Assembly (NCBI GenBank): GCA_015067005.1
Contig: SVNH01000006.1
Span: 1-64,000, forward strand
Direction: 5' to 3'
DNA from: Ruminococcus flavefaciens
Lineage (GTDB): Bacteria; Bacillota; Clostridia; Oscillospirales; Ruminococcaceae
Length of the DNA: 64,000 nucleotides
This document shows, piece after piece, positions 2,530 through 47,134 of this stretch (positions within the stretch are counted from its first letter, which is position 1; every line of letters starts with the position of its first letter). Below the pieces are notes generated by a model, which worked only from the letters and a program-made list of their open reading frames with translations, was not told the DNA's origin and searched no databases. Position numbers and translations under genes: made by a program.

Positions 2530-3948
2530 CTAATATTTTACCGACAGACCATCGGGGTGTTCGCCTGACCGATCTCTTTCGGGCATACAGGACAGATATG
2601 ACATATCGTCAGCGTTCGCTTCCTTTTCGCGTGCGAATATGATCTTATAAGCTGATGCATTCAAAACCAATGCCCCTGTCCATGCGCATATCTCGGCGTA
2701 AGCAGTTGCCTTGAAACCTGTCTGACCGATAAGCAATGATATCGTGCCTATACGCAGTACCATTTCTGCGATACCCGATATCATTGGAACAAGCGGAAAG
2801 CCCATACCCTGTACCGCATTGCGGAATACAAACAGCATATCGACCGCAAACAGCATTGCACCGCATATAGGAAGAAATTCTGCGGCGTAGGTTATTTGCT
2901 CTCTGCCCGAAAGAAGCCGTGAGGCAAGCCACTCGGGGAAAAACGTCATTACCGTACCAAGCACTGCATAGGCTGTCAGCGCAATGAAAAGGCAGACCTT
3001 CAGTCCCTCGCCTATTCTGTCAAAACGCTTTGCGCCGAAATTCTGACCAGTGTACGCCGACATTGCAAATCCCGCTGTACAGGCAGGCTGCATGAACATA
3101 TTGATGTACTTGCTGCACGCCGAATATGCCGACGTAAAAGCCACTCCGAGTCCGTTTACATAATACTGCACCGCCATACAGCCTATCGCGGTTATTGAAT
3201 TCATCAGCGCCATAGGCACTCCGTTTTTCATCAGCTGTCCATATAAAGCACCGTCAGGCTTGAAGTCGCCATCCTGCTTTTTCAGAAAATCAATACTGCG
3301 CAGCTTTTGCAGACATACCGTACCCGATATTATTTGCGAGACTACGGTTGCAGCCGCAGCACCCCATACACCCGTATGCAGAACAAGTATAAAAAAGCTG
3401 TCCATCGTGATGTTGAGAAGCGAAGAAACAACTATAGCCCTGAGAGGTGTTTTGCTGTCTCCGAGCGAACGGAGAATGCCCGCACTCATATTGTAGAATA
3501 TCGTTGACGAAAGTCCGCCGAACAATATGTAGCCGTAAGTCAGACTGTCACCGATTATGCTTTTGTCCGTCTGCATGAGTTTCAGGACAGGATACAAAAA
3601 AGCTATACTGAGTATCGTTAGTATACCCGTTATCATTGCTGCGAGACGTACCATAGCAGACATGGTGCGGCGAAGCTCCGAGAAATTCTTTTCACCGTAT
3701 CTCTGAGCGATAAGCACCGAAAAGCCGTTCGCAAGCCCCATAGAAAACCCGATTATCAAAAAGCACAGCGAACCCATGTTTCCTACTGCCGCAAGTGCGT
3801 TGTCACCCAATCCTCTGCCGACGATAGCCGTGTCCGCAAATGAGTAGAACTGCTGTAACATTCCCGTTGCAAGCATCGGGAAGAAAAAACGCAATATCGC
3901 ACGGCTTGGTTTTCCCTGAGTAAAATCAATATTTCCGCTCATATACAC
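2530..3948 (-). CDS. MATE-family efflux transporter
   Basis: This 472-aa protein has twelve predicted membrane spans and matches the MATE/DinF multidrug and toxin extrusion family: the N-terminal GNIDFTQGKPSRAILRFFFP is typical, followed by FADTAIVGRGLGDNALAAVG. Such pumps export cationic drugs or metabolites using Na+ or H+ gradients. The track start is GTG just after 'aaggag'; an ATG two codons later is possible. It is divergent from the AraC regulator at 4073, with a ~120-base shared control region, so that regulator is its likely controller. No truncation is seen. Confidence 0.92.
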   Translation of the reverse strand: MYMSGNIDFTQGKPSRAILRFFFPMLATGMLQQFYSFADTAIVGRGLGDNALAAVGNMGSLCFLIIGFSMGLANGFSVLIAQRYGEKNFSELRRTMSAMVRLAAMITGILTILSIAFLYPVLKLMQTDKSIIGDSLTYGYILFGGLSSTIFYNMSAGILRSLGDSKTPLRAIVVSSLLNITMDSFFILVLHTGVWGAAAATVVSQIISGTVCLQKLRSIDFLKKQDGDFKPDGALYGQLMKNGVPMALMNSITAIGCMAVQYYVNGLGVAFTSAYSACSKYINMFMQPACTAGFAMSAYTGQNFGAKRFDRIGEGLKVCLFIALTAYAVLGTVMTFFPEWLASRLLSGREQITYAAEFLPICGAMLFAVDMLFVFRNAVQGMGFPLVPMISGIAEMVLRIGTISLLIGQTGFKATAYAEICAWTGALVLNASAYKIIFAREKEANADDMSYLSCMPERDRSGEHPDGLSVKY

Positions 3949-7449: not shown

Positions 7450-8198
7450 TTACTGTGGTTCGCTGCAAAGATATGCGAGTACAAAAACTGTTGGTGAGTT
7501 CCAGTATATAGTGATCTCATTGAGCGAGTAGCTTGCTGTATCGTCCGCATAGCACTTCATGGGCGGAGTTCCATCGGGTATGACCTTTCTTGCAAACAGG
7601 TCGGAAAGATGTTTGTTGGGACCTCCCGCTATCATTCCCGGTATGCATTCCTCTATGCCGTCAGCAAAAGCGGGACGAAGATGAGGATAATTACACCTGA
7701 ACTCTCCTATCCCCGTGATATAGCTTATGCCGAGAGCATTGCACCGAGAAGACAATGAATATGACTGTTCGCATATTCGCGGCAGGTATGGTCGCCGAAA
7801 ATAACATCTGTTATTGCAAATATCATAGCTTTTTTCATAAGTATCATATTGCTGCCACAGCGCAGGTAATAGAATGCCTTCGAGACTTTGTCAAAAACAT
7901 CATCATATACATCATTTCCGATACAGAACACTGAGGATGTTTTGCCTCCTGCATATACAAAGTATCTTCCGTTTTCTGTCAGCTCCGAAAAATCGGCAAT
8001 ATATACGTTGTCACCCGATGCATCGTCCGGTCCGACAGATAACGTATTCCCTGAATAACGAACATTTCTGTTTAGATCCATAACTGTAAAGCTGTCACAT
8101 TCAAACGGAATAACGGCTTTCTTCGTGCCTGATGGGAGATATCCCGCCTGATCGACAAAAATACCGAACGGTGTGGTACGGGGAATAAGCACAGTCAT
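7450..8198 (-). pseudogene. GH9 cellulase remnant (catalytic core deleted, frameshifted)
   Basis: The ORF 8198-7725 starts with the N-terminal Ig-like domain of family 9 glycoside hydrolases (GIFVDQAGYLPSGTKKAVIP, then DNVYIADFSELTENGRYFVY and FYYLRCGSN). It then jumps straight to the GH9 C-terminus, HIHCLLGA, and shifts frame by about one missing base near 7738-7743. The next ORF (7755-7450) continues NALGISYITGIGE, RPAFADGIEE, AGGPN, SLNEITIYWNSPTVFVLAYL. About 350-400 residues of the catalytic barrel, including the DAGD region, are missing. No signal peptide remains. It shows that the lineage had cellulolytic capacity. Confidence 0.8.
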
Positions 8199-8422
8199 TT
8201 CAAAATATTTTCTGTTCGTAATATCACCTGCCTTCGTATATCCTTATGTTATTATATCAGTTGAACAATGAAATCATCTATCAATTCTATTGTGTATTTG
8301 TCAAAAAATGGTGTTTTTGAGATTTTTCAATGTATTTTTAAGTGTTAGGTAGTAATACAAGAGTAAATAGTAGTGAAACAAAAATTGTTCATATATGGCA
8401 GCTTATAGTTATATGTTTTTGA
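8199..8422. other. Intergenic, no feature
   Basis: An AT-rich stretch separates the GH9 remnant from mobile-element remnants. I see no ORF, hairpin or clear promoter in it. It is the likely left border of a decayed integrated element. Confidence 0.4.
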
Positions 8423-8614
8423 TCAGGACGAAATTGACAATGAGGAAAATAGCAAGAAGACTATTATCGTTTCAAGGAAATACTCTTTTGCTTCTTCATG
8501 GTCCGTCCAGACCTCACGCCTGCCGTTGCATACGGTAGTTGCCTTACGTGACTTCGGCATTGCCAATTCGGGTATTGCTAACATTTGAAGCACCTCCAAT
8601 TTCATAATAACCAT
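8423..8614 (-). pseudogene. Small conjugative-element protein, truncated
   Basis: A 63-aa minus-strand ORF contains AMPKSRKATTVCNGRREVWTD and HEEAKEYFLE, which resembles small proteins common in clostridial conjugative elements ('..VNGRREVWTDREEAKEYFLE..', recalled, not searched). The C-terminus IIVFLLFSSLSISS looks like out-of-frame sequence after the break. Its function is unknown. It belongs to the decayed element that ends with the serine recombinase tail. Confidence 0.4.
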
Positions 8615-8712
8615 ATTATAGCCTATGATGTTTTTGGAGTCCAGCCCTGCGGAGAAATTGTAACCATTCTTGTGCAGGGCGCAGCAATTTCAGAAACAAA
8701 TCCGTTGCAGTT

Positions 8713-8915
8713 TCACGATTCCTCGCTTGGCACATGAACGGCGAGCCATCTGATGAACATATCAATCCTCCAAATCGCATAAATCTGTTCCTCGATCTCC
8801 TGAAAATCCTTTAGGTAGGTATCATCATTTTTCGTAACTCTGAGTTTCATCTGATTGACATTGTTGTTGATGCGCCATCCGAGGGCGCTGCTCTTGAAGC
8901 TCTTGATAGAGTTAC
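8713..8915 (-). pseudogene. Possible relaxosome (MobC-like) C-terminal scrap
   Basis: Reading the minus strand up to the stop at 8713-8715 gives GWRINNNVNQMKLRVTKND and then QEIEEQIYAIWRIDMF. The 'NNxVNQ..' plus acidic helix ending in 'xIW' is reminiscent of plasmid MobC-type proteins, but this is a weak resemblance by eye. No start codon is evident. It overlaps the start of the serine recombinase remnant on the other strand. Confidence 0.25.
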
Positions 8916-8921
8916 CGAAAA

Positions 8922-9356
8922 ATGAGAAGACGATTATCCCAACGCTATGAATCCAAAATTAGTCAGCTCGACAATGCGATACAGCTCCTCTTCATGGACA
9001 GGGCAAACGGAAAGATTACAGATGAGCGTTACGATATGCTTTCAGCCAACTTTGAAAAGGAGCAGTCCGAGCTTAAAGCGAAGCTCAATGCTCTTGATTC
9101 ACAGCTTGACGAAATGAAAGTGCGAGAGAAGTGTGTCAGAGACTTCATTAACAACGCAAAGCAGTACACGGAGATACACAGGCTCACTACCGAGATACTG
9201 AAAACATTCATCTGTCGCATTGAAGTCTACGAGAAGGCGGTCAAGCATTCAAGGACTTGTGGTAATCGAGTCGTGATCTACTTCACATTCTCGGCTGACA
9301 AGGCAATAATGATTGACAGAATAATAAACGAAAACGGCGATATACTGGTACTTTAA
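8922..9356 (+). pseudogene. Large serine recombinase, C-terminal fragment (DUF4368)
   Basis: The 144 aa are a coiled-coil followed by the DUF4368-type tail of large serine recombinases (TnpX/Tn4451 class): NGKITDERYDMLSANFEKEQ, then TEILKTFICRIEVYEKAVKH and a final IYFTF. Full proteins are ~500-560 aa; the catalytic resolvase domain with its Ser is missing. A clear terminator follows. These recombinases lie at one end of clostridial integrative elements, so 9391 should be near an old element boundary. Confidence 0.8.
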
Positions 9357-9366
9357 CAACGAAAAT

Positions 9367-9390
9367 CTCCGAGGGTCACCTCCCTCGGAG
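9367..9390 (+). terminator. Terminator after serine recombinase remnant
   Basis: CTCCGAGGG (9367-9375) pairs with CCCTCGGAG (9382-9390), a 9-bp GC-rich stem followed by an A-rich tail. Confidence 0.6.
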
Positions 9391-9488
9391 AAAACATAAA
9401 TATCAATTGTTCGTTAAGAAACGTGAGATAAGTGTAGTGATATGATTTTTTATAACGTAAGCCCCCTTTTGAATGTTTACTTAGTAGG

Positions 9489-9520
9489 TATATTCAGACG
9501 AAGCATAGCTTCGTCTACCA
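9489..9520. repeat. Isolated palindrome
   Basis: The sequence CAGACGAAGC-ata-GCTTCGTCTA is a 9-10 bp inverted repeat with a 3-base loop. It lies just after the broken sensor gene and may be a decayed palindromic element or terminator. Confidence 0.5.
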
Positions 9521-9527
9521 TCACAAT

Positions 9528-10259
9528 AGCCTTACAGCTTCATACTCTTCTGAAGACTCGTTATAGGCAGAACGACCTGTTTTTTGAGCACAAAATACAT
9601 CAACGCCATAAATACGGAGATAACGAGCATAACGCTTACTACTACCACAATAAGGAAGTGTATAAGCGTCGTGCGGATACCGTCCATAGAAAGGTCTGCG
9701 CCTGCAAGCGCCACAGGGTTGCCCTGACTCATATATCGGGTAATAGGCTGAAGCCAAGTAGCCCTGAACGTCATAATAGGCATAATAGAGCTTTTCCTCA
9801 GGGGCCTTTGTGAATGCCCTGAACGCAGCGTCCTTGCCGCCTTGCATATACTCTTCTTTCTCGCCGAGCTCACAGGAACCTTCCTCATCTGCGTCCCATA
9901 TATATCAGTCCGTCTTCTGTGGAGATACAGACATAATAGTATTTCAGGTCAGTCTGCTTCTGTACGGTATTGAAATAGCGGCTGACTTCCTCGTAGTATT
10001 CATCTTTCTCAAGTGTCTGCGCATAATGTGAGATACGGTCTCCGTCTATATACTCGGCAGCTGCCCTGGCATAGCCGAATTCCTGGTGCTGTGTCTGAGT
10101 AATATATTCCTTTACGTACTGTACCCCGACATTAACAGAGGTGACAACTATCAGTGCGGCACCTATGACCATCAGCCATCTGATGACCGATGAACTCAGT
10201 TTATGCTTTTCTTCAACATATGCACCTGCCTTTTGCTGTGAATTTATCCGATTTTCCAC
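9528..10259 (-). pseudogene. Membrane sensor protein, N-terminal part with frameshifts
   Basis: Three overlapping minus-strand ORFs in different frames rebuild one sensor. The start (10259) has SSSVIRWLMVIGAALIVVTS as a transmembrane helix, then an extracytoplasmic domain (EFGYARAAAEYIDGDRISHY, QKQTDLKYYYVCISTEDGLIY), continuing in a second frame (LYYAYYDVQGYLASAYYPI) and ending in a third with GADLSMDGIRTTLIHFLIVV and a second helix before LPITSLQKSMKL. At least two indels have occurred, and everything after the second membrane helix (HAMP, output domain) is missing. It may have been a chemoreceptor, GGDEF or PP2C sensor; the output cannot be told. Confidence 0.65.
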
Positions 10260-10556: not shown

Positions 10557-11387
10557 TTACGCTTGACTTAACCATATCTCAGCATACTTTACTGCATGAT
10601 CCTTCCAAGGTTTCCGGGGACCTATATAATGAATAATGGCAGGATGAGACAGGGCTTCATCATGGAATATATCGTCGGTTCCGACAATATGTTCTCTTAG
10701 AAATTTCATATCAGACACAGTATCATCGGGAAACACATTAAACCGCTTATTCAGGAACCGGACGTTCCCTCCGCAGCTATAATTTATAATATCCTGATCC
10801 AGATAGGGAAAAAATTTTGACTTCCCCAATTCCTTCATTCGGCTAGTTATATTGTCTTTTCTTAGCCGTTTCAGATTCATCAGAAGCACGCCTGAATTGA
10901 CATAGCTGCCGAAAGGAAGGCTGTGATCTGTCACAAAACCATATTGCCGCTTATCAAGACACAGCCGATCGGTAACTCCCATAATATACGCATCCTGTAT
11001 GTCTGACTTGAATATATCCATCACATCTCCGCAGACAGCTATATCCGCATCAAGGTACAGGCATTCATCATCTTCCAGAAGATCGGGGAGTAGCATACGA
11101 TAAAACGGTGTTTGATTTGATACACTTAGGAAGTTGTCGCCCTCATTCAAATGAAATCGGAATTCATATTCCTTTTCCGGGTATAAGAAGCACGGCTCAC
11201 AAACTCCCCGCGTAATTGCTGTTTCACGCAGCAGTTGGATTTCCTTTTCTGTCACATCAGGATTCAGAAGAAAAGCAAACTGTATCTTTTCAGGATTCGC
11301 TGTATGCTGAAGCAGGGACCTGACACAGATACAGACATACTCCACATAGGGTCTGTTCATGGAAAAACATATCTTTTTTGCGTTCAT
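10557..11387 (-). CDS. Glycosyltransferase family 8
   Basis: This ~277-aa GT8 enzyme (retaining, GT-A fold) transfers hexose from a UDP-sugar. It has the DxD metal motif in CLYLDADIAV (about residue 115-125), plus YVNSGVLLMNLKRLRK and FPYLDQDIINY, all typical of LPS/teichoic-type GT8 galactosyl- or glucosyltransferases. A start at ATG 11387 is supported by 'ggaaa' nine bases upstream; the track begins at a TTG three codons earlier. It is third in the operon after the sugar kinase/nucleotidyltransferase fusion and the MATE-ATPase fusion, so it may use the activated sugar made by the first gene. Confidence 0.88.
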   Translation of the reverse strand: MNAKKICFSMNRPYVEYVCICVRSLLQHTANPEKIQFAFLLNPDVTEKEIQLLRETAITRGVCEPCFLYPEKEYEFRFHLNEGDNFLSVSNQTPFYRMLLPDLLEDDECLYLDADIAVCGDVMDIFKSDIQDAYIMGVTDRLCLDKRQYGFVTDHSLPFGSYVNSGVLLMNLKRLRKDNITSRMKELGKSKFFPYLDQDIINYSCGGNVRFLNKRFNVFPDDTVSDMKFLREHIVGTDDIFHDEALSHPAIIHYIGPRKPWKDHAVKYAEIWLSQA

Positions 11388-11408
11388 TTCTATCAATTTC
11401 CTTTCTTT

Positions 11409-13136
11409 CTAAATTTTCATGAGAAGTGTATTGATACCAACCGTGTTATAATAGGATATATCTTTAGTAAGCATGCCTATCATTCGTATTCCGATATTCT
11501 TACACGGATCATCAGGTGAGAACTGATTCATACGCTCGACAGGATCAAAAGCCACGCAGTCATCCCGGATTCGGATGGTGAGATCACCGTTTTTAATGAC
11601 AGTTCTGATGTCAATGCAGTGTGGTTTTTTATCAGTAAATCCATGCGTAACGATATTGCCTGCCATCTCTTCTATACAAAGACCTGCGATCTTGCTGTCA
11701 TGGGACGACATTCCCTTTTCTCCGCAAAAAAAGATGATTTTCTCAGAAATATGAATAACCTCGTTCATGTTTTTGACAGAAAACTCCATTTTCTGATCCT
11801 CCGAAGCACCGAAGTCACTGTTCAACCAGAGCCATGACTTTTTTCGGATTCCAATGAACGCAATCACCAGAAGCAGTGTTAGCTCTGCTAATGGAAAAGC
11901 GAGCCAGACCGCATCTGCTCCAATGACAGAAACGCCTAAAGCCGAATAGAGACCGATGATCAGGTTTTCTGCTACGGATGCAATATTAACAAAACTCTTC
12001 TCATCTTGGATCTGGTAGCATTTCAAAAGCAGATTCAGAACAGTGTTACATACTAAGAATGACGGAAAAATAAGAAGCATACGACGAGCGATAGCCCACG
12101 CAGGATCGCCTTGCGTGAAGAACAGTGCAGGGATCAGGTTTGAGCAAGCCATTATCAGTATCATAAGTCCTGCTGATATGAAGACTCCCACTTTCATAGC
12201 ATAGCGGAATGTATCCAGATAGCCTTTTCTGTCCTCTTCGCCATAGCTTATTGCAGCTAATGTCATGAAGGCAGCAGCGCATCCCATAGGTACTGCGCCG
12301 GCGAAAGAGCATACAGAATTCTGCACATTGATGACTGCAACAGCATCAGTTCCTATGGCGTTCATCATACAGCGGTTCATAATGTATGATTTTGCTGTGC
12401 ATCCGACAGTAAACATTAGATTTGGCATTCCGGTCATAAAAGCCTCGGGAAGCACACTTAAATGCAGGGATTTCAAATCCAAGTACATGGTTCTTTTTTT
12501 GTCAAAAAAGCCAAATAACATAAACGCGGATGATAGTAAATAGCTTACGGAAGAAGCAAATCCCATACCCCATAGACCCATTCCCAATACAGGAACCAGC
12601 AGGATATCCAGTGCAATATTTGATGCAACCATAATTCCTATCCCAATATAGGATCTTGTTTTATCATTATTAAGTGGAAGAAAAAACAAAAGGATACCGG
12701 AGAGCACTTGCCCGATGATACCATAGGAATATCCTGCTATGTAGGATGCTGTGAGGGAAACTGTCTCACCCTTTGCACCAAGAAAAGCAGCCAGCGGCTT
12801 AGAAAAAATGTTGCTTGAAACCGATACGGCAAAAGCAAACGCCCCTAATGTAACGACCGCGGTCGAGAACAGCGATGCAACCCGCTTTTTATCACCGCAC
12901 CCTATGGCTTTTCCGCACACGATCTGTACTCCGGTTGTTATCACATAAGCAATGCCTAAAACTGTGGAGACTGGTACAAATAATCCTATGGCTGCCAGAC
13001 CTTCTGTTCCAATATATCTACCTGTGATAACAGAATCGATCATGGTGTTGATTGCTGCTACCAACACACTGATAATCTGAACGGGGAGAACGCGGAAATA
13101 CGATTTTTTAATGATATTTGATATACTTCCTGACAT
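11409..13136 (-). CDS. MATE-type transporter fused to RsbW-like ATPase domain
   Basis: Residues 1 to about 440 form a MATE/MOP-superfamily transporter with twelve membrane spans (GRYIGTEGLAAIGLFVPVST, then FFLPLNNDKTRSYIGIGIMV). The last ~125 residues form a cytoplasmic GHKL ATP-binding domain of the anti-sigma-factor kinase type, with an N-box like IEEMAGNIVTHGF and a G1-like RIRDDCVAFDP and NIGIRMIGM. I choose ATG 13136 (after 'gaggtg') over the TTG at 13142. The fusion suggests a transporter whose state is coupled to, or gated by, a serine-kinase-like domain. It sits between a sugar-activating enzyme and a GT8, so it may flip a glycoconjugate or export a small glycoside. Confidence 0.85.
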   Translation of the reverse strand: MSGSISNIIKKSYFRVLPVQIISVLVAAINTMIDSVITGRYIGTEGLAAIGLFVPVSTVLGIAYVITTGVQIVCGKAIGCGDKKRVASLFSTAVVTLGAFAFAVSVSSNIFSKPLAAFLGAKGETVSLTASYIAGYSYGIIGQVLSGILLFFLPLNNDKTRSYIGIGIMVASNIALDILLVPVLGMGLWGMGFASSVSYLLSSAFMLFGFFDKKRTMYLDLKSLHLSVLPEAFMTGMPNLMFTVGCTAKSYIMNRCMMNAIGTDAVAVINVQNSVCSFAGAVPMGCAAAFMTLAAISYGEEDRKGYLDTFRYAMKVGVFISAGLMILIMACSNLIPALFFTQGDPAWAIARRMLLIFPSFLVCNTVLNLLLKCYQIQDEKSFVNIASVAENLIIGLYSALGVSVIGADAVWLAFPLAELTLLLVIAFIGIRKKSWLWLNSDFGASEDQKMEFSVKNMNEVIHISEKIIFFCGEKGMSSHDSKIAGLCIEEMAGNIVTHGFTDKKPHCIDIRTVIKNGDLTIRIRDDCVAFDPVERMNQFSPDDPCKNIGIRMIGMLTKDISYYNTVGINTLLMKI

Positions 13137-13160
13137 TTTCAATACACCTCGACTATTTCA

Positions 13161-15107
13161 CTAAGATTTACCGAAGCAACTCATTGCTTCACGATAGGCA
13201 TCTGGGTTTCCGATATCAAAGGCTCTTCCTTTTGGTAAAAATCCTATCAATCCGCCTTTGTGGCATACCTTTACCAGAGCGTTTGTCAGATTAATTTCTC
13301 TTCCGTCAGATGCATCACCTGACTGAATCTCTGTTTCGAGTGCATCATATACTTCAGGTGTGATGATATACTGACCAAATGTAGCGTAATAATTCTTTTC
13401 TTCAAATTTATCACAAACGCCCAAATATTTCTTAGCATATAGTGTCTCAGGCTTTTCCACCATATTATCAACCAGCATTAAGGATCTGTTTTTTGTAATC
13501 CACTTTCCGTGAATCACTCCGTAATCCGTAACTTTATTGAGAGGTATTTCTGAAATACTGATCACTGTCCTGCCGCTTTGGGTATATGCATCCATGACCT
13601 GTTTGCAACAGCTTTTATCAATAAAAGACTGATAAACAAAATCACCTAGGAGCAAAAGTACAGGATCATTGTCGGCAAATGATCTTGTTAGCCAGACAGC
13701 GTGACCAAAGCCCTTTCTTTCGGTCTGGATCACAAAAGATATATGCTTTCGTATCTCTGCGATCCTGGCTGCCATCAATTGTTTTTCAGGTGAAAGTAAA
13801 TTCAGCATTTCCGCATCTAAGGGGGCAAATAAATGTTCTATGTCTTTTATATCGTCTTTTCCAACAACTAATGCAATTTCCCTGATACCAGAAGCAATGA
13901 CTCTATCAAGCAAAATCAGTAATAAAGGTTTGAGAATTCCATCCGTATCCACTAATGGCATCAGGCTTTTCTTCAGAACCCTTGTCGCCGGAAACAATCT
14001 TGTGCCCAATCCAGCTAATGGTATGACCGCTTTTGTAACTTGTCTTGCCTGAGTAATGGTATGCTTGTAAGAAGGCATTCTTTTTTCATCCCATAAATAC
14101 TTTCTTAATGCTTCACTTTCTTTCTCTCCCTTTGCTAAAAACTGCACGGAACCATCTCCCTGCGAACCAACACCTTTTCCACCGTAAACCCATTTTTTAA
14201 TATTCGGGTCATTTAGGACAGAATGAAGTATAGGTGCTTTCAATTCAGGGGAAATGGGCATAACCATTTCATCAAAAACTTTCTGTGCTTCATCCATTAG
14301 TTTTCCGAGTTCCTCAGGATTTCCCTCTTCAATATAACGAACTGCCGCAGAAATGATCTGTTTATTCCTTTCTCCAAGTGCTTGCTGAACTTTTTCTGCG
14401 AATTCACTTTCAGCAAACGGATAGGCGCTGTTTAAGTCTGTCAGGATTTTGATTGTATCCTTTGAAGACATAAGGTTTGCAATCACCAAATGAAAAGTCG
14501 CTCCCACCTTCAACGGTTCAATCCCAACTTCCATGCCATCAAATTCCATCAGCATAGGACCGGCCCTATAAGCACAGGATTGATCCATACGGCCGCAGTG
14601 AGAGCCGGCACGCTGTTCTCCTATGAAAGCAGCCTCAATTTCATCCGTGATACTCATATTCAAATGATATAATCGGTTAAAAGCTCTTGAAATAAGCACA
14701 CATATCGCAGCCGAAGATGATAGCCCACTTTTCATTGGCAAATCTCTTTTCACAATGGTTATTTTGGCACCGCCGATTGCGTAATTCTCACACATATAAG
14801 AGACGACACCTGCAACATAAGAAAAGAAGCCACCTTGCTGTGCTGCCAAAAGCAGCTTTTCTGAATCCATTTCGCATGTCCAGAACTCGTTTTCTTGCAA
14901 TTCAGGGGAACTCTCCATGATAAACAAATCGGCTTTTTCCGCCATTGCATAGATTCCCATTTCTGTACTTGTTACAATGGCAAGTCCTTTTTCAATGTCG
15001 TGATTGATCGTCCTGTACATTCCTGCCCAATCCGAATGTTCTCCAAACAGACATAATCTGCCAGGAACAAACAGGTTTATCATTTCTTCTGGTATTTGCT
15101 TTTCCAT
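13161..15107 (-). CDS. Fused GHMP sugar kinase / sugar-1-phosphate nucleotidyltransferase
   Basis: The N-terminal ~340 residues are a GHMP small-molecule kinase: FVPGRLCLFGEHSDWAG matches the galactokinase-type opening, and PMKSGLSSSAAICVL is the ATP-binding loop. The C-terminal ~300 residues are a GalU-type nucleotidyltransferase: VIPLAGLGTRLFPATRVLKK, then a VEKPETLYA segment and GREINLTNALVKV. Such a fusion would phosphorylate a sugar at C1 and then charge it to an NDP-sugar in one protein, analogous in logic to Bacteroides Fkp but in the opposite domain order. ATG 15107 follows 'gaggt'; the track ATG at 15122 lacks that spacing. It is first in a tight operon (13161 to 13136 gap about 24 bases). 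Confidence 0.85.
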   Translation of the reverse strand: MEKQIPEEMINLFVPGRLCLFGEHSDWAGMYRTINHDIEKGLAIVTSTEMGIYAMAEKADLFIMESSPELQENEFWTCEMDSEKLLLAAQQGGFFSYVAGVVSYMCENYAIGGAKITIVKRDLPMKSGLSSSAAICVLISRAFNRLYHLNMSITDEIEAAFIGEQRAGSHCGRMDQSCAYRAGPMLMEFDGMEVGIEPLKVGATFHLVIANLMSSKDTIKILTDLNSAYPFAESEFAEKVQQALGERNKQIISAAVRYIEEGNPEELGKLMDEAQKVFDEMVMPISPELKAPILHSVLNDPNIKKWVYGGKGVGSQGDGSVQFLAKGEKESEALRKYLWDEKRMPSYKHTITQARQVTKAVIPLAGLGTRLFPATRVLKKSLMPLVDTDGILKPLLLILLDRVIASGIREIALVVGKDDIKDIEHLFAPLDAEMLNLLSPEKQLMAARIAEIRKHISFVIQTERKGFGHAVWLTRSFADNDPVLLLLGDFVYQSFIDKSCCKQVMDAYTQSGRTVISISEIPLNKVTDYGVIHGKWITKNRSLMLVDNMVEKPETLYAKKYLGVCDKFEEKNYYATFGQYIITPEVYDALETEIQSGDASDGREINLTNALVKVCHKGGLIGFLPKGRAFDIGNPDAYREAMSCFGKS

Positions 15108-15149
15108 ATCTGTTAACCTCATTTGCTGTTCAGCCGATCTTTACTGCAC

Positions 15150-16320
15150 TTCTCAGCACGCATCCATAAACCGCATGTTTCTGTCTGTAAAATCGCGTAG
15201 TCCATACCATCAACAAAACAATGATTTGTTTCCTGATTCCGCAAAACTCAAAACGATTCAGCGGCTCTGAGAAAGGTACAAAACCAGCCGTTACAGTGAC
15301 CAAGCGCAAGTCGTAATTTGCGAGCGTGATTCGTCAAATGTCCAGCAATCAGAATCAGATTGTCGATCACTGTCCGAATTCTTCTGTGCTTGATTGCATC
15401 GTGACGAACCGGCATATCCTTTCCCTTCATTGCTGCTGTTCCGATGATGCGCAGGATGTTGTAAGCGATCATTGTAAGCTTCAGGATCAGCGCATTCGTC
15501 TCGAACTTACCGCTGGGCATGTGCTCGATTCCCATATCCATCTTGATTTCATGGTGATACTGTTCACAGACAGCATGATTGTGGCATAGTTCGATCAATT
15601 CATCATCAGATACGCCGAGTGATGTCCAGTACATATTGATTTCTGTTTCCAGGAACAGCATTTCCTGTCCGTCTGCGGATGTTGTTCGTTCGGTGATTTC
15701 ACAGGCCATACGAATGGCAAATTTACCTTCCTTTTCCGTCTAAAAATAACGCCATGTACTGCCGATATATACACTTTCCCGTCTCTGGGATGCTGTACAT
15801 TCTGACAGACGGATTCCAGTTCCTCTGCGATTGCATAACGATCTTCACGGCGAAAATTGTGCTTGATCAGGAATTTCAGCTGCGGATCATGCTGATATTC
15901 CCATCGAGGATCTGCGTATCCATCAAAGTGCCGGTCTGATCCATTCGATTGCGAAGTGATGATTCCGATGGGATGCCGTATGCAATTCCGAGAGAAATCT
16001 TGTAGAATTCTTCGTCTGCAGAAATTCATTGACATTCTCAAAATCTGATTTTCCAAGCTACAGCAGTCCAATCATGGTCAGAAGAATATCACCGTTTTTA
16101 ATCTGCAGCTGAGAACTCTTATCCTTTCTCATGCGGTTGGCTTTTTTATCAAATTTGACTTGCCGAGCACCTATCCCGCGAGCGATAGTCCGCTTGGTGT
16201 GCTCAGTCTTTCATTGCTGACAACATACTCGATTTTCCGCATTCGAAATCTCACCCTTCAGATGCTGTTTGAACAGCGTAGTTTCCACCTCTATTATAAC
16301 ATATTTACGCGTTTTATACA
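15150..16320 (-). mobile_element. IS1380-family insertion sequence, degraded
   Basis: Minus-strand ORFs 16071-15595 and 15709-15248 are frames of one decayed IS1380 transposase (DDE group 1). The 3' part has HHEIKMDMGIEHMPSGKFET, NALILKLTMIAYNILRIIG and LTNHARKLRLALGHCNGWF, which is the conserved C-terminus. The 5' part includes FLIKHNFRREDRYAI. Further upstream a fragment beginning MRKIEYVVSNERLSTPSGLS stops after ~20 codons, downstream of a 'tataat' on the minus strand near 16300. Multiple frameshifts make it inactive. Precise terminal inverted repeats could not be fixed by eye. Confidence 0.75.
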
Positions 16321-41419: not shown

Positions 41420-42457
41420 ATGCAGTGCGAGAAATGTGAAGCTCAAGTCGATCCACGACTTGTCTCGTGCCCCAATTGCGGTGCGCCGGTCCCGCAGAAT
41501 ATAGAGGGATTTGAAAATACTATGGAATTCCAGCAGGAACTGCGTTCGATCGTTGTCAACCACGGTCCTTACGGTGTTATCAAACAGAACCGCTTCGTCG
41601 GCCTTCTCAACGACTATATTCCTGATTACAGCAAAGAACGCAGACTACTTATTAATATGTATAGAATGGGCGTTCTCAAGCTTATGCTCAAAGAACCTAA
41701 CCGCGAGATCTCTATAATGCGAGCAAAAAGCTTTATGCTCGGAGATGCTTTTCTCTCCGAAAATGCTACCGAATTCGTACTTGCCTGCTATACATATATG
41801 CTCGGCTGGCCTTATGAATCAACTCTGAAAGTTCTCCCGCCTGACGAAAACGGCGAGGAACAGCCGGTCGAAGAAGCACCCAAGAAACGTGCAGCAAGCA
41901 TTGATGATATGGTGTTCACTCCGCGTAACGCCTTCAGATACCGTCTCAGCAGCAATATCGTTATCCCGGATGGTTTCACAAAACTCGAAGCTTTCTGCTT
42001 CGATAAATTCGGTTCCCTCAGAACGATCCAGCTTCCGCAGTCGCTGCTCGCTATCGGTGAGTATGCTTTCTCAGGATGCAAGCGTCTGAGAGGTCTCGAT
42101 CTTCCTGAATCACTGAGAATTATCAAACAGGGCGCATTCAGCCAGTGTGCAAAGCTTGTGGTAGTCAAGATCCCTAAGGGCGTAATGGAGATCGAAGACA
42201 GCACCTTCTCTTTCTGCACAAGCCTCGAAGTTATCGAGATACCGGATACAGTCAGCAGCATAGGCGCTGAAGCTTTCTCAGGCTGCGATAAGCTGAGAAA
42301 ACTCTTCCTTCCAGAGAGCGTTAAATTCATCGACATCAATGCGTTCTCCTACTGCCCTAACTTAACTATTCATTGCATAGAGAATTCTTACGTTCATAAA
42401 TACTGCCTTGTAAACGGTCTCAGCGTTAAACTCGTTACCTCATCGGCAGAAGTTTGA
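41420..42457 (+). CDS. Zinc-ribbon and leucine-rich-repeat (BspA-like) protein
   Basis: The 345-aa protein starts with a CxxC-x10-CxxC zinc ribbon (MQCEKCEAQVDPRLVSCPNC). A helical middle (about 35-170) is followed by LRR_5 repeats of the BspA type (FTKLEAFCFDKFGSLRTIQL, LAIGEYAFSGCKRLRGLDLP, and three more to ~330). No signal peptide, so it is cytoplasmic. It heads the kinase/vWA/PP2C block and may be a scaffold. Confidence 0.82.
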   Translation: MQCEKCEAQVDPRLVSCPNCGAPVPQNIEGFENTMEFQQELRSIVVNHGPYGVIKQNRFVGLLNDYIPDYSKERRLLINMYRMGVLKLMLKEPNREISIMRAKSFMLGDAFLSENATEFVLACYTYMLGWPYESTLKVLPPDENGEEQPVEEAPKKRAASIDDMVFTPRNAFRYRLSSNIVIPDGFTKLEAFCFDKFGSLRTIQLPQSLLAIGEYAFSGCKRLRGLDLPESLRIIKQGAFSQCAKLVVVKIPKGVMEIEDSTFSFCTSLEVIEIPDTVSSIGAEAFSGCDKLRKLFLPESVKFIDINAFSYCPNLTIHCIENSYVHKYCLVNGLSVKLVTSSAEV

Positions 42458-42488
42458 GTTCCAGTAATTAACGAAAGGATGAATTCAG

Positions 42489-43832
42489 ATGGTTGAACTC
42501 GAAATCGGTCAGGAAGTTGAAATGGAATACGGAGGGAGCGCTAAGGTTCTCAGCGTTATCGGCAGCGGCGGTCAGGGTACTGTTTATCTTGTAAGATTCA
42601 ACGGTATGAAATGGGCGCTGAAATGGTACGACATCGACAAGATGAAAAAACCAAAGGTGTTCCGCAAAAACCTTCAGAATAATATCAATGACGGTCCGCC
42701 AAGCAATAAATTTCTCTGGCCCAAATATCTGACTAAAGAAACCGAGGACGGTACTTTCGGTTATATAATGGATCTGAAACCCGATGGCTTTGATTCATTT
42801 GTTGATATCCTCAATACATATAAACTTGAGATCGATCCTCTTACAGGTCACGCTGTGAAGAGACCTGTCAAATTCAACAGTCTCTCAGCTATGGTGACAG
42901 CTGTTATCAACATTGTAAACGCTTTCCGTCAGCTCCACAGATCCGGTAAGAGCTATCAGGATCTTAACGACGGAGGCTTCTTCATCAATGTGAATACAGG
43001 CGCTGTTCTCGTCTGCGACTGCGATAATATCGCTCCGGACGGCAGCAACTTCGGTATCGGCGGTAAGCCCGGCTATATGGCTCCTGAGGTCGTAAGAGGC
43101 ATCGCTCAGCCGAATGTTCAGACTGATAAATACTCACTTGCAGTTGTACTCTTCAAGCTTCTCTTCAGAGGAGATCCTATGGAGGGCGAAAAGGTAGTCA
43201 GAGACGTTTGTCTCACCGAATCCTCAGAACTTAAACACTATGGTCAGAATGCAGTTTTTGTATATGATCCGAACGATTCCTCAAACCGTCCGGTAAGAGG
43301 TATCCACGATAACGTTATCAAGTTCTGGAGGATCTATCCGGATTATATCAAGGACGCTTTCATACGCTCATTTACCACTGGTATCACTGAGCCTGCAAAG
43401 CGTATCATAGAGAACGAATGGCAGAAGCTTTTCATCCGTCTCCGCTCTGAAATAATCATGTGCGGCTGCGGCAGAACAAACTTCTCATCAATGTTCGTTC
43501 AGCCGAATGATAAAACATTCAAATGCCCGAAATGCGGAATGGAATTTGCTTCCCTCGGATTCAGCGACCGCGATTACCGTATGCCGCTCTACCTCGGATG
43601 TAAGTTCTATGATTGCGAGATCAGCGCAGATTCAGACGATTTCACAAAGATAGCCGGCGAACTTGTTGAGAACAAGCTCAAGCCCGGTGTTCTCGGAATC
43701 AAGAACTGCTCTGAAAGAAAATGGCGAGCAAAAATGCCTGACGGCGTATTTTATGATATTGCCCCCGGAAAGGGATTCCCTGTTTGGCAAGGTCTTGAAA
43801 TAGACTTTGGCGAAATCAAGGCACAGATATAA
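42489..43832 (+). CDS. Ser/Thr protein kinase-like protein with C-terminal zinc ribbon
   Basis: The 447 aa hold a kinase fold: glycine loop VIGSGGQGTVYLVRF (about 22-36), Lys in MKWALKWYDI, a catalytic Asp in GKSYQDLNDGGFFIN (instead of HRDLKPEN), metal Asp in LVCDCDNIAPDG (instead of DFG), and PGYMAPEVVRG. The C-terminus has CGCGRTNF and CPKCGMEF, a zinc ribbon. These variants are those of the TerY-P-type kinases, which are thought to act with a TerY vWA protein and PP2C. 31 bases separate it from the LRR gene. Confidence 0.85.
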   Translation: MVELEIGQEVEMEYGGSAKVLSVIGSGGQGTVYLVRFNGMKWALKWYDIDKMKKPKVFRKNLQNNINDGPPSNKFLWPKYLTKETEDGTFGYIMDLKPDGFDSFVDILNTYKLEIDPLTGHAVKRPVKFNSLSAMVTAVINIVNAFRQLHRSGKSYQDLNDGGFFINVNTGAVLVCDCDNIAPDGSNFGIGGKPGYMAPEVVRGIAQPNVQTDKYSLAVVLFKLLFRGDPMEGEKVVRDVCLTESSELKHYGQNAVFVYDPNDSSNRPVRGIHDNVIKFWRIYPDYIKDAFIRSFTTGITEPAKRIIENEWQKLFIRLRSEIIMCGCGRTNFSSMFVQPNDKTFKCPKCGMEFASLGFSDRDYRMPLYLGCKFYDCEISADSDDFTKIAGELVENKLKPGVLGIKNCSERKWRAKMPDGVFYDIAPGKGFPVWQGLEIDFGEIKAQI

Positions 43833-43885
43833 TCCGCTGTTGAGTTATCAAACCTATACAGCTTATCGAAAGGATGTATTTAATT

Positions 43886-44761
43886 ATGAGTAACGAAAAC
43901 ATGACAGAGCCAGTAGTAAACGAGAATAAGAACGTTTCAGGTCTCGATGATTTCGAGCCGGCTTCAGCTCCTGAGAATACAGCTCCTGCTGCTGATAGTC
44001 TCCTCGATTTCGATGACGATCCGCTCAGCGCTACCGGTGTTTCAAGAAAAAGCCTTGTTATCTTCTTCCTGATAGATACTTCGGGAAGTATGAAAGGCAA
44101 GAAAATGGGTGAGCTCAATACCGTTATGGAAGAACTTATCCCTGAGATCAGAAGAGTCGGCGAAGCTGATACAGAAGTTAAGGTAGCAGTTCTTACATTC
44201 TCTACCGAAGTAAGATGGATGTATTCAACCCCTATCGCTATCGAAGACTTTGAATGGGCAAGACTCCGTGCAAGCGGCGTTACCAGCATGGGCGCTGCAT
44301 TCAAGGAACTCTCTCTCAGAATGTCCCGCAACAGCTACCTCAATTCACCTTCGCTTTCATTCGCACCTGTTATCTTCCTTATGACCGACGGCTACCCATC
44401 AGATGATTATAAGGAAGGTCTTAAAGAACTCCAGTCCAACAGCTGGTATAAGTTCGGTCTTAAAGCCGCTCTCGGTATCGGTGAAGAGGCTAACGATGAC
44501 GTTCTCGCTGAATTCACAGGCAGCAAGGATACAGTTGTCCACGCTTATTCAGGTACACAGCTCGCTCAGATGATCAAGATCATTGCTGTTACTTCCGCTC
44601 AGATCGGCAGTAAGAGTATGACACTTTCCGATGACAACGGCCGTGAGATCGGCGAAGAAGACGTTTTCTCTGCTAAGCAGAAGCTCCTCGGTCAGCAGAT
44701 CCAGGAACTCGTAAACAACAAGGTAGAAGAAAGCGACGTTCCTTTCGATACAGGCTGGTAA
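43886..44761 (+). CDS. TerY-like von Willebrand A domain protein
   Basis: About 291 aa; I use ATG 43886 over the track start. A ~50-residue acidic, disordered N-tail leads to a vWA domain with a MIDAS motif: FFLIDTSGSMKGKKMGEL, VTSMGAAFKEL (Thr) and IFLMTDGYPSDD (Asp). It resembles TerY of stress/tellurite-type systems. It lies between the kinase and the PP2C gene, matching the TerY-P triad architecture. Confidence 0.87.
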   Translation: MSNENMTEPVVNENKNVSGLDDFEPASAPENTAPAADSLLDFDDDPLSATGVSRKSLVIFFLIDTSGSMKGKKMGELNTVMEELIPEIRRVGEADTEVKVAVLTFSTEVRWMYSTPIAIEDFEWARLRASGVTSMGAAFKELSLRMSRNSYLNSPSLSFAPVIFLMTDGYPSDDYKEGLKELQSNSWYKFGLKAALGIGEEANDDVLAEFTGSKDTVVHAYSGTQLAQMIKIIAVTSAQIGSKSMTLSDDNGREIGEEDVFSAKQKLLGQQIQELVNNKVEESDVPFDTGW

Positions 44762-44833
44762 TATACTCTGTTCCAACAATGCAATACTATAACACAGTAT
44801 ATTTCTACTAATCGGAAGGAGGACTGAGTAAAG

Positions 44834-45751
44834 ATGTTCAACGGTTTCAGCCACTCGGTCAAAGGTGCAAGCCACGACAAATCTGGCCTTGTATGTCAGG
44901 ATAGTTCTTCACATAAGGTCACTGACCGTTACGCTATCGCCGTCGTTGCCGACGGTCACGGAAGCAAGAAACACTTCCGCAGCGATAAGGGATCTAAATT
45001 CGCTGTTGAAGCCACTATCGAGGCTATCGACACTTACTTCGAGGATTACGATCAGTTCGTAAGTAACTTCCCCTCAAACCACAAAATGATCATCAAAAAT
45101 ATCCAGAAACAGGCTATTTTCAACTGGAATAAAAAGGTAAATGCTCACCTCTTGGATAATCCGGTAACAGATGAAGAAAAAAGCAAGTTCACCCCTGAGG
45201 AATTTGAGGCTATCCCGCCCGAATCCTACTACGGTTCAACTCTCATCGCCGGCATCGCCGCTAAGGACTTCACCTTCGGCATCCAGATCGGCGACGGAAG
45301 CCTTGTTGCTATTTTTGATGACGGTGAAGCTATTATGCCAATGGAATATAACGAAGCCGCTCCGGCTAACGTTACCGCTTCTATGTGCAACTCGAACGCT
45401 GCCTCAATGTTCAGCGGATTCTACGTGGAGAACAAGAAGCTTATCGCTATGTATGCTTCTACTGATGGTCTTTACACCTCTTTCGGCAGCGAGCGCGACT
45501 TCCTTGATTATCATACTATAATCACAAGTCAGCTTGCAAATATCGAGAATTTCAAAACAGTTATCATCAATAATCTCACTAAACGTTCACATTTCGGTAC
45601 AGAGGACGATATTTCCCTCTCCTGCGTTTATGATACCGATATTATAGATACTCAGATGGATCTGATCGTATCAAAGGTAGAGGAGAATAAAAAACGTGCC
45701 GCAGCAAGAAAAGCTGAGCTTCTTACCAAAAAGATCGATAATTTTGAATAA
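44834..45751 (+). CDS. PP2C-type Ser/Thr phosphatase
   Basis: The 305-aa phosphatase has AIAVVADGHGSKKHFRSDKG, the PP2C metal motif DGHG, and later GIQIGDGSLVAIFDDGEAI and EDDISLSCVYD, also PP2C metal sites. 'ggaaggagga' upstream. With the kinase and the vWA gene it completes the triad that reversibly phosphorylates targets. Confidence 0.88.
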   Translation: MFNGFSHSVKGASHDKSGLVCQDSSSHKVTDRYAIAVVADGHGSKKHFRSDKGSKFAVEATIEAIDTYFEDYDQFVSNFPSNHKMIIKNIQKQAIFNWNKKVNAHLLDNPVTDEEKSKFTPEEFEAIPPESYYGSTLIAGIAAKDFTFGIQIGDGSLVAIFDDGEAIMPMEYNEAAPANVTASMCNSNAASMFSGFYVENKKLIAMYASTDGLYTSFGSERDFLDYHTIITSQLANIENFKTVIINNLTKRSHFGTEDDISLSCVYDTDIIDTQMDLIVSKVEENKKRAAARKAELLTKKIDNFE

Positions 45752-45895
45752 CTATGCAAATAACGGTTCGTAATACCGTTTAACCGTGAGATCTGCGGAA
45801 TTTCCTCTTTGCTCATAGCAGCCGCAGCTTCTCCGGAATAAATAAGGCGCTGTTCACAGCGTAATATAAATGAAAGGGAAAAGTGGTGTTTGTTT

Positions 45896-47134
45896 ATGGA
45901 AATTAGTGCTTTCTACAATACTGCAAAAAATTTCGCAAACAAGATCAAATCCGAAAGACCAGATATGGTTTCTGATCCGGACGCTTGCCTCTGCCTTATT
46001 ATAGCAGATACAGACGAGATCTTCTCAGGCGTTACTACAATAGGCGTTAACGACGAAGGAAATGTTGTTACAGTTCCTGCTGAGAATATTGCCGTTATGT
46101 CTGTTATTGCAAACGGTAAGGCTAAAGCAAGACAGATGATAATCATTACATTTGATGATAACAGCTTCTTTGAGCCAAGTCAGGACGCTCTGACTATGCT
46201 CGTTAAATCCGGAGCTGAAAACAGCAGCTGTCAGATCGTTACCTCTCCTGAGGAATCTGCTACTGCTGCAAGTATGTGCAATTATACTCCTGATTTTCTC
46301 AGCGATTATGATGATGCAACTTCATCACCTCTCGGTGCTCCGGCTGACTTCGCTGCCGGCTTCGATGTTGATGAATCAAATCCATTCAATGCTCAGAATT
46401 CAAACGGCGCAGCTCAGAACGGTGCTCAGTCCGGCGAAGGTCCTAAGTTCCTCTATGAGACAGCTGCTGATGCTCAGCAGCAGGGCGCAAGCGGTTTCGT
46501 AAATCCACAGCAGAGCGGCTATCCGCAACAGGCTGGTTATCCACAGCAGAGCGGTTACCCTCAGCAGAGCGGTTACCCTCAGCAGAGCGGCTATCCGCAG
46601 CAGGGCGGCTTCCAGCAGCAGGGCGGTTATCCACAGCAGGGCGGCTATCCGCAGCAGGGCGGTTACCCTCAGCAGGGCAGCTTCCCGCAGCAGGGCGGCT
46701 ATCCTCAACAGGGCGGTTACCCTCAGCAGGGCGGATATCAGCAGCAGGGCGGTTTCCCTCAGCCTAATCCTTACATGGGCGCAGGTACACATACCTCAGT
46801 TTACCAGAACGGCGGAGTTAATGCTGCTCCTTACACTCAGGGCTACGGCGGTTCACATTCTGTACACGTTGGCGGCGCTGCACCTCTCCGCAGCAACTAC
46901 CAGCAGAGCAGTGTAATGCTTTCAAAGACAAGCGGCGGTGCTTTCAAGAAGAGACTTAACAGCTTCCTTGATGATGATTCCGATGTAGACGCTGAAACAG
47001 CTGAGATCGCTGCAAACGCTGCAACAGCCGGCGCTACTGACCTTGAAGACGGTCCTATGTCCAAGAACGATATGCTCAAACAGGCTAAGGATAAAAAGAA
47101 AATCGCTAAGGCTAATCTGAAAAGTAAGTTTTGA
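45896..47134 (+). CDS. Deaminase-fold-like protein with YPQQ-repeat tail
   Basis: Residues 1 to about 135 align by eye with the deaminase-like protein at 25512-26252: [20 protein letters not shown] matches SPDDTVCAIRTRSGRVFTG, and the zinc motif HAEVEAVQSML is [12 protein letters not shown] here, with His replaced by Pro; the PCxxC site is also gone. So this is a zinc-less, presumably non-catalytic paralog. The middle has ~14 hexapeptide repeats ([S/G]G[Y/F]PQQ, DNA 46507-46764). The C-terminus [17 protein letters not shown] matches the paralog's NRVNSLLRAASDDDEE. The ATG 45896 follows a weak RBS; the track begins at a TTG two codons earlier. Last gene of the triad block. Confidence 0.7.
46507..46764 (+). 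repeat. Tandem 18-bp coding repeats (GYPQQ)
   Basis: About fourteen degenerate copies of an 18-base unit encoding [S/G]G[Y/F]PQQ lie in the protein above. The units differ mainly at silent or Y/F sites, which suggests ongoing repeat turnover. This is coding low complexity, not a CRISPR. Confidence 0.85.

Follow-up and report, generated by a model that had tools for sequence, protein, structure and literature searches.

A predicted sugar kinase-nucleotidyltransferase fusion beside a MATE-ATPase protein and a GT8 glycosyltransferase in Ruminococcus flavefaciens

Three adjoining genes and their flanks

The stretch of DNA analysed here (the window, 64,000 nt) contains three intact genes in a row on the minus strand (Table 1). 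The first encodes a fusion of a GHMP kinase with a nucleotidyltransferase, the second a MATE transporter bearing an RsbW-like ATPase domain and the third a GT8 glycosyltransferase, with gaps of 18 nt between the fusion and MATE genes and 12 nt between the MATE and GT8 genes. A preliminary description of this DNA had presented the set as tightly spaced, intact and co-directional, which the open reading frames, gaps and Pfam matches bear out; the first gene is present on the minus strand as described, but ends at 15122 rather than 15107. No terminator-like sites were found on the minus strand between the three genes, and their close spacing makes co-transcription likely. The third gene was rightly called a GT8, with a Glyco_transf_8 match of 3.1e-38 (132.2 bits against a gathering score of 24.3) and the motifs LYLDADIAV (DxD) and HYIGPRKPW.

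Table 1. Features of the three-gene set and its upstream flank
Feature	Position	Strand	Evidence
Fusion gene, galactokinase-like GHMP kinase + GalU-like nucleotidyltransferase, 653 aa	13161..15122	-	ORF, Pfam, AlphaFold2, Foldseek, VIA-align
Kinase domain, residues 15-356	14055..15080	-	Structural alignment, fusion alignment
Kinase catalytic loop, residues 172-186	14565..14609	-	Fusion alignment
GalU-like nucleotidyltransferase domain, residues 360-650	13173..14045	-	Pfam, phmmer, alignment, fold match
MATE transporter ending in an RsbW-like ATPase domain, 577 aa	11409..13142	-	ORF, Pfam
HATPase_c_2 domain, residues 437-577	11412..11834	-	Pfam, alignment
GT8 glycosyltransferase, 279 aa	10557..11396	-	ORF, Pfam
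IS1380 transposase remnant, upstream of operon	15248..15709	-	Pfam and curated-profile matches

The neighbouring genes had been described as decaying. This holds for the immediate neighbours, which are broken, but genes leftwards from 7468 are intact. Upstream, the IS1380 remnant is in frame for profile positions 292-417 of 419 only. Downstream, broken pieces span 7725-10259 and comprise a truncated cellulase N-terminal domain (7725-8198), a recombinase C-terminal piece (8922-9356) matching DUF4368 as found in large serine recombinases, another sign of mobile-element debris near the operon, and short fragments at 9532-10259.

Elsewhere in the window, a second MATE transporter, of the ordinary kind that lacks an ATPase domain, is encoded at 2530-3948. 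A plus-strand row at 41420-47134 reads as genes for a protein with zinc-ribbon and leucine-rich-repeat parts, a protein kinase, a von Willebrand A protein, a PP2C-like phosphatase and one more protein with many YPQQGG repeats.

The kinase-nucleotidyltransferase fusion and its family

Both halves of the fusion protein are recognized by Pfam above the gathering score (GHMP_kinases_N, 1.9e-14; NTP_transferase, PF00483, 1.1e-19), and the motifs quoted for them earlier, PMKSGLSSSAA and LAGLGTRLFPATR, are both present. By phmmer, the C-terminal half leads to GalU enzymes (E 2.8e-32) and the N-terminal half to galactokinase. The AlphaFold2 model (mean pLDDT 88, from an alignment of 57 sequences) divides in the same way, with Pyrococcus galactokinases at the top of the Foldseek ranking for the N-terminal part and enzymes of GalU type at the top for the C-terminal part. 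VIA-align scores the kinase half at Z 35.7 with galactokinase 1s4e, 31.3 with GalNAc kinase and 30.4 with the FKP kinase, and the nucleotidyltransferase half at Z about 31 with GalU. Pfam, fold matches and motifs thus agree on a GHMP kinase and a GalU-type nucleotidyltransferase in one protein, as first described. Identification of the GHMP half as a mevalonate kinase was rejected, as the match falls under its curated cut-off and ranks structurally behind galactokinase. The curated profiles for galactokinase (TIGR00131; 58.2 bits, cut-off 226.65) and GalU (TIGR01099; 162.4 bits, cut-off 326.8) are missed as well, and since the fusion lies under all three cut-offs its sugar is not readable from a family name.

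Structural alignment pairs R22, E28, H29, D31 and D180 of the fusion with R11, E17, H18, D20 and D151 of 1s4e, residues that in 1s4e make sugar contacts or serve as the catalytic base, and all five are without variation across 84 aligned fusions. The nucleotidyltransferase residues R375, K385, D494, E556, K557 and D636, taken as catalytic from their roles in GalU, are equally invariant, so that every mapped catalytic residue of both active sites is kept. Conversion of a free sugar to an NDP-sugar by one protein, as originally envisaged, would fit these residues and a large conserved fusion family, and on its sequence the fusion is probably a bifunctional enzyme that would perform the two steps. 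For the tyrosine that lies close to the sugar in galactokinase, no clear equivalent could be made out when the fusion was aligned with 1s4e, and we name galactose as the specific substrate only tentatively.

In outline the enzyme resembles FKP of Bacteroides fragilis, a bifunctional L-fucokinase/GDP-fucose pyrophosphorylase of 949 aa in which the pyrophosphorylase precedes the kinase (PMC11982464, PMC12732313). Each joins a GHMP sugar-1-kinase to a pyrophosphorylase in a single protein leading from free sugar to NDP-sugar, an activity that for the window enzyme is a prediction. The window enzyme, however, has its kinase first and a GalU-type PF00483 nucleotidyltransferase, with no fucose pyrophosphorylase domain by Pfam, and the reversed domain order and absent domain rule out its membership of FKP. 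The zebrafish glucuronokinase/putative pyrophosphorylase GKUP also unites a GHMP kinase with a bacterial-type nucleotidyltransferase in a single salvage protein, but in reverse order relative to the window fusion and with a kinase specific for glucuronate; bacterial pyrophosphorylases of its group are reported as unfused only (PMC3938481). Among single-function enzymes, galactokinase 1s4e of Pyrococcus furiosus is the nearest fold to the kinase half, with counterparts of the five mapped residues but only 23% identity, and GalU (UTP-glucose-1-phosphate uridylyltransferase) is the nearest family to the C-terminal half; both differ from the window protein in standing outside a fusion.

The two fusions of the set had been called unusual; both are real, but both architectures recur in many genomes. 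At least 83 further full-length kinase-nucleotidyltransferase fusions exist besides the window copy. A genome scan with the kinase alignment kept 80 full-length fusions of 46-58% identity among 511 relatives; an earlier scan with the window protein alone as query had returned no matches. The hosts belong to several phyla and are bacteria of the rumen and gut, namely Lachnospiraceae, Oscillospiraceae, Bacteroidales including Prevotella, and Treponema, and within the window's genus the fusion occurs in 2 of 125 genomes. A phage origin was rejected, the sole full-length match in a phage collection (MT836394) being a faecal scaffold of unverified status whose genes look bacterial. The family seems undescribed, no paper on it having been found in literature searched mostly without subscription journals.

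Unfused kinases of the family occur on Nostoc plasmids, and on a Sphaerospermopsis (cyanobacterial) plasmid a kinase, apparently truncated in frame, and a nucleotidyltransferase are separate adjoining genes (L003:14968-16725) with a GT28 nearby. In a Clostridia family (f64; L007, L008 and L009) the kinase lies between a gene that reads as GH127-like and one for an RmlA-like nucleotidyltransferase, a gene row that hints at L-arabinose salvage. The side-by-side placement of unfused kinase and nucleotidyltransferase in both settings counts for a role of the fusion in sugar activation.

The closest relatives of the fusion usually sit with genes of GtrB/GtrA/YfhO three-component glycosylation systems, where loading of an NDP-sugar on a polyprenyl carrier is followed by flipping (PMC7389260). 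As described, these systems have no kinase-nucleotidyltransferase, and the window has neither GtrB nor GtrA. Sixteen of the 84 fusion loci carry a GtrB-like GT2 no more than 5 kb away, directly adjacent and co-directional in 12, and other neighbours include GtrA (5 loci), UDP-galactopyranose mutase-like genes (4) and a GalE-like gene (1). Among 55 close co-directional neighbours GT2 is the commonest Pfam family (13), followed by GtrA (3), and the locus of a same-genus relative (G488) runs from a 567-aa protein that reads as YfhO-like through GtrB and the fusion to GtrA. In the window's own genome, no GtrB closer than 30% was found. RmlA lies near 27 of the 84 loci, mostly of Prevotella type, and was discarded as pathway evidence because it is convergent and reads as synteny with core genes. 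These neighbourhoods lead us to propose that the family usually would supply nearby glycosyltransferases, most visibly those of GtrB/GtrA systems. A galactokinase above cut-off is already present in 21 of the 31 fusion hosts checked, which counts against simple galactose catabolism as the role. One further locus (L013:10222-17917) reads as the fusion followed by a thioesterase gene, NRPS-like genes and two glycosyltransferases of MGT type, a row that suggests a glycosylated natural product.

The window copy is divergent within this family. It groups with Oscillospiraceae sequences in the kinase-domain tree (support 99/93) on a branch of 0.8, against 0.22-0.33 in its sisters, and both of its domains have diverged more than theirs. 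It carries 12 private departures at positions where 97.5% or more of the other fusions agree, where the median elsewhere is 0 and its sisters have 1-2. Five of these (T172A, R175H, L179M, A182S and G186R) lie around the catalytic base in the catalytic loop. The private changes could reflect an altered or weakened function, but the absence of stops on the long branch and the retention of the mapped catalytic residues argue that the enzyme still functions, perhaps on a different sugar.

The MATE-ATPase protein and the company it keeps

The description of the second gene as a MATE transporter fused to an RsbW-like ATPase domain is upheld by Pfam, with MatE (4.1e-25; 88.8 bits against a gathering score of 24.9, in two stretches) and HATPase_c_2 (1.3e-8) both above their gathering scores; the likelier ATG start lies two codons inside the called ORF. 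The C-terminal domain resembles the anti-sigma factor kinases RsbW and SpoIIAB and keeps the N-box EEMAGN, with the Glu and Asn of SpoIIAB, but it differs from them in being fused to a transporter and in its degenerate G1 box, the latter shared with most relatives. The ATPase domain occurs in 21 of 391 Clostridia genomes (about 5%), for the most part within open frames 570-670 aa long. No paper on such fusions was found in a literature search made mostly without subscription journals.

Twenty stretches around relatives were compared, of which 19 hold the MATE fusion (one truncated) and one (L140) a different protein. Partner-switch genes lie within a few genes of 8 of the 19 loci (STAS at 6, SpoIIE at 2); Pfam confirms STAS in L124, L127, L130 and L132 and SpoIIE in L138, and those in L133, L135 and L139 were assigned from resemblance. 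The window operon contains no STAS gene; its own genome has eight STAS matches and four HATPase_c_2 matches, two of the latter adjoining STAS genes. The RsbW-like domain would probably couple the exporter to STAS partner-switch proteins, to judge from the neighbours of its relatives, and the earlier idea of ATPase-gated transport would thereby gain a specific form, that of partner-switch control by STAS proteins. Single proteins that unite STAS, APH-like kinase and HATPase_c_2 domains are encoded near MATE-ATPase fusions at L124:7139-8701, L127:9452-11041 and L130:11702-13309. Directly adjoining such fusions at L124:1831-3681 and L128:8661-10553 are two proteins, 616-630 aa long and related to each other, that end in a PnrA-like (PF02608) domain.

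The proposal that the three genes form one pathway is not supported by comparison across genomes, and it fails by the refutation stated with it, homologues of the three seldom being found side by side. Within flanks of up to 8 kb, many contigs being shorter, none of the 84 fusion loci has a MATE-ATPase gene and two have a GT8 (L047 and L088, directly upstream in the latter). Conversely, the 19 MATE-ATPase loci have neither a kinase-nucleotidyltransferase nor a GT8 nearby. Unfused MATE proteins occur, not adjacent, in four fusion loci (L024, L026, L027 and L069). No close relatives of the window GT8 or MATE-ATPase protein were found in about 400 genomes each. A conserved three-gene cluster was discarded on these counts, and the set is, as far as searched, private to its own genome.

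Proposed recruitment of a sugar-activating enzyme, and alternatives

The explanation that best accounts for the locus, and in which our confidence is evenly balanced, is that a common sugar-activating fusion was recruited into a set with a GT8 and a MATE exporter. From the computed domains, residues, family, neighbourhoods and long branch, we infer its catalysis, sugar, use by the GT8 and export as follows. The N-terminal galactokinase-like domain would use ATP to phosphorylate C1 of a free hexose. The GalU-like domain at the C-terminus would then convert the sugar-1-phosphate with UTP to a UDP-sugar, the likeliest sugar being galactose or a galacto-configured relative. Recruitment into the tight set would have taken place beside mobile-element debris. 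The GT8 would probably be the consumer of the UDP-sugar in the cytoplasm if the explanation is right, although taken by itself its use of the fusion's product is a tentative claim; the RsbW-like domain of the exporter would probably be linked to STAS partner-switch proteins, and export of the glycosylated product by the MATE protein is doubtful. The two intact domains with their invariant residues, the many full-length relatives, the GtrB, GtrA, mutase and GalE genes near some of them, the lack of a close GtrB in the window's own genome, the tight same-strand spacing, the lack of a terminator-like site and the GT8 near two other fusions count for this explanation; the galactokinase redundancy, the tyrosine without a counterpart, the lack of the trio elsewhere and the 12 private changes count against it.

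A sugar other than galactose, for example L-arabinose, GalNAc or glucose, is a serious possibility that falls somewhat short of even, and the window copy may itself have switched sugar. The GH127-like gene read beside kinase-only relatives, the structural closeness of GalNAc kinase, the redundancy of galactokinase in most hosts and the altered catalytic loop of the window copy all favour it, against which galactokinases head the structural ranking and the mutase and GalE neighbours at a few loci fit galactose. Less probable, at about one chance in three, is that the three genes, the fusion gene having been transferred, landed together in mobile-element debris as accidental neighbours with no common product, each acting by itself. 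Mobile-element remnants flank both sides, the trio does not co-occur elsewhere and MATE-ATPase relatives keep company with STAS and SpoIIE rather than with glycan genes; yet the genes share a strand with minimal gaps and no intervening terminator-like site, they are intact amid broken immediate neighbours, and a GT8 lies near two other fusions. That the fusion is heading for loss under selection relaxed since it parted from GtrB and GtrA, and is now barely active or inactive, is improbable, for despite its private departures, long branch and decayed immediate neighbours it retains 653 codons without stop or frameshift, the mapped catalytic residues of both domains and two intact downstream genes. 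At the far end of speculation, and very improbable as a whole, the fast-evolving fusion might make a changed UDP-sugar that the GT8 transfers to a small molecule, exported in turn by the MATE protein, with STAS phosphorylation switching its RsbW-like domain so that a partner switch would gate the transporter directly.

The occurrence of STAS and SpoIIE genes beside MATE-ATPase relatives makes it testable whether partner switching controls transporters besides sigma factors. The fusion, if active, would be useful for one-pot synthesis of UDP-sugars, as FKP is for GDP-fucose. Rumen and gut bacteria would then possess a large, so far undescribed family of enzymes that make NDP-sugars within one protein, which would explain how scavenged sugars are fed directly into surface glycans.
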